DNA from: Candidatus Nitrosotenuis sp. | Lineage (GTDB): Archaea > Thermoproteota > Nitrososphaeria > Nitrososphaerales > Nitrosopumilaceae | Assembly (NCBI GenBank): GCA_004322465.1 | Contig: SCVO01000002.1 | Span: 1-47,023, forward strand | Direction: 5' to 3' | DNA: 47,023 nt | Shown here: piece by piece, positions 38,377-40,316 of the stretch | How the letters are laid out: every line of letters begins with the position of its first letter | Position numbering within the stretch: the stretch's first letter is position 1 | Notes under the pieces: generated by a model | Told to the model about the DNA's origin: nothing | The model's input: the letters and a program-made list of their open reading frames with translations, nothing else | Databases searched by the model: none | Translations under genes and position numbers: made by a program

Positions 38377-39453
38377 ATGGGCTTAAGCATTGCACTTGCG
38401 GTCGGCATAGTGGCAATCGCGTTGTTTACAATATTGTTCACGTATAATTTTGTAAATAATTCAATTTACGATTATGTTCTGTCAAGATCCGAAATATCCA
38501 AAATCGACGATTCGATTTCAAAAACCATCATAGACATTCAGTACCCAAACGCAACGGCAGGAAGCAGACTTGTTAGTTTCAGCCTGGTAGAAAACGGGAC
38601 AGAAAAACTGTGGAATTTCGACAAGTTCGTAGTACTGGTCACGTATGATGCCGATATTGGGGGAGTTTCAACACCAACCACTGAAAAACTCACCTTCAAC
38701 GATGCACAGTCTTTTGCGCAAGTTGGAACTAATATCGGCACTGCACAGTTTGCAAGACCGATTTCCGATATTTCAAAGGGAGGGTGGACAGATACTGTGG
38801 GAGGAGACAATGACGGGATACTGTATGACGAGGTCAACGAGACTGCGAGGAGCGACATAAACTATGCAAGATCCGCCAGCCTGACTCTTCTTAGTCCGAC
38901 AGACACATGGACGGCAGGGCTGTCAAGCGTAATTGATCCGCAAGAATCAAGCAACCACATAGTCAGCTACGTATATAGAAAAAGTGCTGCCGGTGGCGTT
39001 ACAATAGATATCACGACCAGGCTCCTGCAGGGAGGAACGCAGATAGCGTCGTGGACGCACAGCGCAGTAGGATCATCTTTCACACTGGCACAGCAAACAC
39101 TGACTGGTGCACAGGCGGACTCTATCACAAACTATTCAGATTTGAGATTAGAGTTTACTGGAACATATGCGAGTGGAATTCTCCCATTAACATCGGCAGA
39201 CATATCTTGGGCCAACTTACAGGTCCCCCCAACACCTGATGGCATGTATGACTGCACAAACACAAGTATTTCTTCTGGTCAGTGGACAATAGATAGAATT
39301 ACTTCGGACAACTTGGATCCTAAAATACTAAACACTGCAGAGCTTGGCAAGATTTGCATAAAATTATCAAACAACGTCATTGCGGGAGGCAGCGTAAAAA
39401 TCGTAGTCTCTACAGATAACGGCAAGACAGATACGCGGTCAATTGTGGCATAG
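38377..39453 (+). CDS. ArlF/FlaG-like archaellum or pilus protein with an inserted beta domain
   Basis: 358 residues. An N-terminal membrane helix (about 2-26, LSIALAVGIVAIALFTILFT) is followed by an ArlF/ArlG-like beta domain that begins about 50-110 and resumes at about 290-358 (WTIDRITSDNLDPKILN and DNGKTDTRSIVA). Between them, about 125-285, lies another domain with RPISDISKGGWTD, a D-E acidic start and SADISWANLQVP at the end. That pattern is common in viral and bacterial surface proteins of jelly-roll type. The insertion is unusual. It is located 150 nt before an archaellin, so a role in the archaellum stator or a surface filament is likely. Confidence 0.7.
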   Translation: MGLSIALAVGIVAIALFTILFTYNFVNNSIYDYVLSRSEISKIDDSISKTIIDIQYPNATAGSRLVSFSLVENGTEKLWNFDKFVVLVTYDADIGGVSTPTTEKLTFNDAQSFAQVGTNIGTAQFARPISDISKGGWTDTVGGDNDGILYDEVNETARSDINYARSASLTLLSPTDTWTAGLSSVIDPQESSNHIVSYVYRKSAAGGVTIDITTRLLQGGTQIASWTHSAVGSSFTLAQQTLTGAQADSITNYSDLRLEFTGTYASGILPLTSADISWANLQVPPTPDGMYDCTNTSISSGQWTIDRITSDNLDPKILNTAELGKICIKLSNNVIAGGSVKIVVSTDNGKTDTRSIVA

Positions 39454-39602
39454 AACAAACTACGGCACAGTTCCTATGTTTTGATACGGCGGATAAAAAT
39501 ATCCATTAAAATCGTAAAAAGAATCGCTTTTTGCCAATATTCAATGTATGTTCATATTGATCATACGTCATGATATGCAATTACATCAAACATACGAAAC
39601 TG

Positions 39603-40316
39603 ATGACATTTAGGAAAAGGCGCAGAAATTCTCACCGAGGAATTTTAGGCATAGAATCCGCCATATTCCTGATAGCAGTTATGATCGTATCTGCAGCTTT
39701 AGCTGTGGTTGTTGTGAACATGGGTTTGTCCACAACACAAAATGTACAGACCACGTCACAGTCAGGTTTGAATGGTGCCGCCAGCGGGTTGCAAATCGCA
39801 GGTATTGTGACAGGAACGGGATGCATATCTAGCTCAAACGGATGTTCAATACATTACCTAAATGCAACTGTGATTCCATTTAAGATCGCATCTGGCGGCA
39901 ATTCGATGAACTTGCAACTCGCAACTGCGTCTGTAAAGTACATTAGCAATTCCAAGTCATTTGACAATATCTACAAAGGGCAGTTGGCAGCAAGCACCAC
40001 ATACGCTAATGCAACAACAGCATTCACTGCGGCAGGAGCAGCTGGGATCACAGGATTCACTAACGGCGTTACAAATCCCATAACCAAGTCACTACCATCT
40101 CAAACGGTCGCAATTATTTATTGGACTGTAAGCAAAAATACGGATTACATGTTAGACGAGGGCGAACGTGCAGAGCTCGCAATCGCATATGGAAACGACG
40201 ATAGGCCCACAACACACGACCAAATCAGAGTAGAAGTTGTCACTCCAACAGGCGCGTCACTTACTGTAGAAAAATATGTTCCAGACATAGTCAACACTGT
40301 GATAAACCTAGGTTAA
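39603..40316 (+). CDS. Archaellin (archaeal flagellin)
   Basis: About 237 residues from ATG 39603 (an in-frame ATG also lies at 39570). Class III signal peptide: basic FRKRRRNSHRG with cleavage after the glycine, then the hydrophobic filament core ILGIESAIFLIAVMIVSAAL. The rest is Ser/Thr/Ala-rich beta domain with two cysteines (G-C-I-S and G-C-S-I), typical of archaellins. It would be processed by the preflagellin peptidase and assembled into the archaellum. The motor genes arlHIJ are not in the window. ATG 39603 gives the normal short leader. Confidence 0.9.
   Translation: MTFRKRRRNSHRGILGIESAIFLIAVMIVSAALAVVVVNMGLSTTQNVQTTSQSGLNGAASGLQIAGIVTGTGCISSSNGCSIHYLNATVIPFKIASGGNSMNLQLATASVKYISNSKSFDNIYKGQLAASTTYANATTAFTAAGAAGITGFTNGVTNPITKSLPSQTVAIIYWTVSKNTDYMLDEGERAELAIAYGNDDRPTTHDQIRVEVVTPTGASLTVEKYVPDIVNTVINLG

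Follow-up and report, generated by a model that had tools for sequence, protein, structure and literature searches.

The gene at 38377-39453 on the forward strand of the window, i.e. the entire 47,023-nucleotide stretch that was analysed, is a second ArlF of a Nitrosotenuis-type ammonia oxidiser, located outside the archaellum operon. Almost certainly, its architecture is that of an ArlF sandwich interrupted by a separate jelly-roll domain. We assign a probability of about 0.6 to the reading that the product, hereafter ArlF2, is an envelope-anchored display platform, with the jelly-roll as an adhesive or anchoring module.

The features on which the analysis is based are as follows.

38377..39453, + strand: insert-bearing ArlF paralog, ArlF2 (358 aa), coinciding exactly with an open reading frame
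38377..38697, + strand: ArlF N-terminal half, residues 1-107 (sequence matches and model)
38698..39252, + strand: inserted segment including linkers, residues 108-292 (alignments and match boundaries)
38740..39228, + strand: RP..GGW jelly-roll domain proper, about residues 122-284 (sequence family, model and fold matches)
39253..39450, + strand: ArlF C-terminal half, residues 293-358, with loop Cys293 and Trp303 (sequence matches and model)
39603..40316, + strand: companion archaellin with a class III signal, ..SHRG/ILGIES.. (PF01917, E = 1.3e-15); 39603 is a chosen start, the listed reading frame beginning at 39570

Two halves of ArlF around an insertion

When the genome of origin was searched with ArlF2, one further gene was found, a 170-aa ArlF encoded in a single unbroken frame on contig C112. 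The two proteins are similar in both halves (39-43% identity), with 39% identity for ArlF2 residues 1-107 (E = 6.1e-17) and 43% for residues 297-355 (E = 8.5e-9); the C112 protein lacks the insert and, unlike ArlF2, is encoded in the archaellum operon after arlG. When the ArlF of another species (G016) was compared with the window, the matching pieces stopped at 38697 and resumed at 39250. In an alignment of 22 rows (5 insert-bearing proteins and 17 canonical ArlFs), all 17 canonical sequences are continuous where the 5 others carry about 185 residues, and the insertion occupies a single place, flanked on one side by a strand that ends near F107 and on the other by the conserved Trp303, i.e. 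the loop between strands 4 and 5, ahead of the conserved Cys. Given that this loop Cys (C293), which lies just before Trp303 and is nearly invariant in the alignment, is retained, the ~185 residues replace only about 3 loop residues. ArlF2 matched PF22201 with E = 5e-5 and 24.2 bits (cut-off 28.4), and there was no NCBIfam match to ArlF2, the canonical ArlF of the same genome itself reaching only 19.3 of 110 on NF052590. Hydropathy windows of 19 residues starting at ArlF2 residues 1-12 exceed 1.4, and no class III signal motif was found in the first 40 residues.

A full-length AlphaFold model, built from a 10-row alignment, has a mean pLDDT of 63.7, with block means of 81-92 over residues 51-110 and 63-91 over residues 291-358, the insert being weak in this model (26-57 over residues 111-200). 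The N-terminal half is modelled as a helix (3-49) followed by strands 52-59, 65-72, 85-94 and 97-107, and the C-terminal half as strands 302-308, 323-329, 339-345 and 351-357. VIA-align superposed the model on Sulfolobus acidocaldarius FlaF (4zbh) with Z = 18.0 and an rmsd of 1.8 A over 119/119 residues, spanning model residues 40-358 with the insert skipped, compared with Z = 13.5 for chain 5tug_A of the FlaF/FlaG complex and Z = 13.3 for FlaG (5tuh_B). With 4zbh scoring higher than the FlaG-bearing entries, ArlF2 is identified as an ArlF and not as an ArlG, and its two halves form one domain. S. acidocaldarius ArlF/FlaF (4p94, 4zbh) shares with ArlF2 the N-terminal helix and the beta-sandwich (22% identity over 119 residues of 4zbh), whereas ArlF2 differs by the ~185 residues before the loop Cys and by being a second copy outside the archaellum operon. 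Thus, the sequence matches and the 4zbh superposition bear out the preliminary description, in which residues 50-110 and 290-358 were taken for two halves of one archaellum stator-type domain flanking an insertion at 125-285; these limits are correct to within ~15 residues, and the full model is an ArlF sandwich with a separate jelly-roll, not one continuous known fold.

The RP..GGW domain and its relatives

Modelled alone from a 30-row alignment, the insert reached a pLDDT of 92.1 and a pTM of 0.88 and is all-beta except for two short helices. Among solved structures, those closest to it, with Foldseek E from 2.1e-5 and Z about 10-11 in the top rows, are the Fbs1 sugar-binding domain, CBM16, CBM4-2, HpiC1-type cyclases and MAM domains. 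The Foldseek TM-scores are modest (~0.3-0.5), indicative of a shared jelly-roll fold rather than close kinship; CBM16, CBM4-2 and Fbs1, similar as they are in fold (Z about 10-11), are only 6-12% identical to the insert, which matched 0 Pfam families. Among 30 relatives of the insert, 1 matched GH114_assoc (0.0066), comparison with PHROGs gave only weak single matches, and PDB sequence searches yielded nothing convincing (best profile E = 0.19). Because CBM-like jelly-rolls are also found in enzymes such as HpiC1, the fold alone does not give the ligand; a putative ligand- or S-layer-binding role of the insert, as originally proposed, would fit the CBM/Fbs1-like fold.

The motif pattern singled out in the preliminary description (RP.SD.S..GGW ... 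LLQGGTQIA ... SISWA) proved to mark a recognisable domain. It is encoded in 38 IMG/VR loci, with 27-45% identity over the best segment, and forms part of large surface-type proteins in related archaea. Of these, AOA proteins of 953 and 1105 aa combine it with fn3, laminin-G and surface-Ig domains; the domain also occurs in a 255-aa protein of related archaea that has a C-terminal hydrophobic segment. The jelly-roll model and the sharing of the domain with archaeal surface-type proteins agree with the proposal that ArlF2 is split by a surface-type beta domain. The domain belongs to a family that is widespread among proteins of archaea, bacteria and viruses and for which we found no Pfam entry. 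It also opens a protein of 820 aa encoded within a phage-tail-like cluster of genome G067 (L046:5708-8170), on a contig that may be contamination (5% contamination is listed for this genome).

The preliminary description further raised the possibility of domain capture from a virus; an insert acquired directly in this way may serve virus-host interplay. The domain is indeed common in viral contigs (the 38 loci), where it starts <=18 residues from the frame start in 29 of the 31 loci inspected, and the best BFVD fold matches of the insert are phage proteins (best E = 3.3e-9). However, a tblastn search for the domain in 50,697 phage records gave no match, and the IMG/VR proteins, although of the same sequence family, are not nearest to the inserts in the domain tree (38 rows, including 22 of the 38 viral loci). 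In this tree, the six Nitrosotenuis inserts group together (100/99) and nest with AOA surface proteins in clades of nine (96/88) and eleven rows (96/90), and the insert of the G053 paralog pairs with a surface protein of G297 (90/63). In a reduced set of 29 rows, 13 of them viral, an 11-row archaeal clade was recovered (89/87), and forcing the viral locus L069 as sister to the inserts cost 12 log units, a borderline result (p-AU = 0.062). Starred branches in the first tree part the G053 insert from the other inserts, and a single clade of all seven inserts was not rejected (p-AU = 0.12, 29-row reduced set). Surface proteins of the same archaeal family, as opposed to viral proteins, thus appear to be the nearest relatives of the inserts, and one or two captures from host surface proteins are more likely than direct viral capture, which we regard as quite improbable.

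Decorated ArlF paralogs and their genomic context

Within the genus (17 genomes, i.e. 16 relatives and the genome of origin), 11 genomes had an ArlF match and 7 of these an insert-bearing gene. The gene is intact in six (G000, G005, G008, G010, G012 and G013) and broken by a stop and frameshifts in G007; in the other 4 of the 11 ArlF-bearing genomes, no decorated copy was seen (G001, G016, G004 and G009, the last two being 61% and 78% complete). The broken copy in G007 and these four genomes indicate that the insert-bearing copy is dispensable. Among 250 genomes of the family, 48 had an ArlF match and 13 a decorated ArlF paralog, namely, the seven Nitrosotenuis genomes, G037 and G053 with loop inserts, and G367, G361, G085 and G285; a canonical ArlF match was also found in 13/13 of these genomes. 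The insertion examined here is therefore largely specific to one genus (7/17), a question left by the preliminary description, with one larger relative carrying the same domain in another genus. This relative, the 733-aa paralog of G053, contains an RP..GGW domain that is itself split by about 400 nested residues, whereas the 793-aa paralog of G037 has an unrelated-looking insert in the same loop. The G367 (LS_AOA) paralog (864 aa) carries Laminin_G_3 and DUF2341 after the sandwich, and the G361 copy, which is interrupted, is of the same laminin-G/DUF2341 type; the G085 and G285 paralogs are 269 aa long, with PKD at the C-terminus in G085 and near-identity of G285 in the part compared. Taken together, the paralogs of related genera suggest that the same platform may have been fitted with different surface modules.

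The decorated genes of G037, G053 and G367 are each flanked by arlF and arlH. The 733- and 793-aa paralogs (L042:7993-10194 and L043:6623-9004) come from one genus and occupy the same antisense arlF-arlH slot; differing inserts in this slot of two genomes are suggestive of module exchange. Separately, a 126-aa ArlF-like frame without the N-terminal helix (L139:4990-5370, the same as L065:11774-12154) sits between a laminin-G-decorated ArlF and arlH. Three further long frames from a phylum search have no loop insert: G280 encodes a C-terminally longer ArlF, and those of G274 and G296 look like upstream reading-frame extensions. Decorated copies were also set against the presence of ArlF in a Fisher test, which was discarded as circular, these copies having been found with the ArlF profile.

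A 30-row tree of the ArlF core places the eight loop-insert paralogs, together with LS_AOA, apart from the canonical ArlFs (94/86, not starred), and G085 falls outside this group. The eight loop-insert rows as one clade were not rejected (p-AU = 0.274); a single clade of decorated paralogs is not proven. The ratio w was 0.08-0.18 in the ArlF core (5/15 pairs with measurable dS) and 0.10-0.27 in the insert (6/15 pairs), the other pairs being saturated. Wherever dS is unsaturated, core and insert alike show little nonsynonymous change; hence the gene is retained for its protein product.

On C112, archaellin is followed by a gene for a 439-aa protein at the position of ArlCDE and then by arlG and arlF, an order that identifies this contig as the start of an ordinary archaellum operon. 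The 439-aa protein (L004:693-2012), with no Pfam match and NCBIfam matches below cut-off only, could be the motor scaffold of thaumarchaea, which a review (PMC8978795) calls yet to be identified. Of 8 archaellum and chemotaxis queries, those for ArlF and archaellin alone matched the window; ArlF2 is thus not accompanied by arlG and arlH, and the archaellin is the sole match beside it. Lacking an arl operon, the window gene was classified as an ArlF paralog and not as the ArlF of the motor. The synteny with the archaellin, to which the preliminary description had pointed, was found in 3/7 genomes (the genome of origin, G008 and G010), with the opposite gene order in G008 and G010, and the archaellin neighbour is absent in G005, G007, G012 and G013. 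The G008 and G010 companions are identical to the window archaellin at 40/45 helix residues, compared to 22-29/45 for 29 operon archaellins of other loci; the globular part of the companion archaellin is up to 69% identical to that of an operon archaellin. The conserved divergent polymerisation helix suggests a distinct assembly role for the companion archaellin.

Proposed envelope display and alternative functions

Published work describes ArlF as a stator component that is secreted to the pseudoperiplasm, attaches to the S-layer and caps ArlG filaments; S-layer binding is also stated in two reviews (PMC8978795, PMC8667602). By extension, the N-terminal helix of ArlF2 would sit in the membrane and the sandwich would lie in the pseudoperiplasm, docked on the S-layer or ArlG like an ordinary ArlF, while the jelly-roll would bind a glycan or another ligand on the S-layer, on a filament or in the outside world. 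The anchoring part of the archaellum would thereby serve the cell as the holder of an adhesive or anchoring module, in addition to the canonical ArlF that the motor operon encodes. Envelope display is supported by the complete ArlF sandwich, the independently folding insert, the low w, the retention of canonical ArlF and the existence of other decorated paralogs.

The closest competitor to envelope display, which we rank first, is an alternative stator subunit that replaces canonical ArlF in some motors, the insert gripping the S-layer differently, e.g. via glycans. The full ArlF fold, the reported S-layer binding of ArlF and the location of three related paralogs inside archaellum operons are all compatible with such a subunit; nevertheless, we consider it rather unlikely, given that the window gene lies outside the arl operon, that canonical ArlF is always kept, and that a motor would have to accommodate bulky C-terminal decorations of ~100-690 aa. 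Less probable still, and ranked third, is a role within an archaellin filament, either as a minor subunit or at the tip, whereby ArlF2 and the neighbouring archaellin would form a distinct adhesive filament. Here, the adjacency of the two genes in both orders and the shared companion helices have to be set against the four genomes that lack this neighbour and against the N-terminus of ArlF2, which is devoid of the class III signal motif that the archaellin possesses (RGIL). Finally, the interrupted copies in G007 and G361 could be taken to mean that the gene is a relic or an assembly artefact without function, but the six intact copies in separate genomes, single-contig ones among them, and the low w in both core and insert make this highly improbable.

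According to a survey of type IV filament systems in archaea (PMC4858521), FlaF and FlaG are single-copy in every archaellum-bearing archaeon, and in the open literature that we searched, mostly as titles and abstract openings, no title referred to a decorated or duplicated ArlF. Against that survey, decorated second copies indicate reuse of the stator fold, and they provide a handle on the binding partner of ArlF and on a possible link between swimming and attachment in motile ammonia oxidisers. The decorated loop of ArlF2 may tie the swimming gear to surface attachment. A more tentative, wider possibility, to which we give somewhat less than even odds, is that archaellated Nitrosopumilaceae maintain a second ArlF lineage as a modular plug-in platform, the base of the archaellum doubling as a site of attachment or ligand sensing. 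If so, lectin- or adhesin-type modules would be exchanged at one and the same loop or at the C-terminus, and the platform would have a dedicated archaellin partner in Nitrosotenuis.
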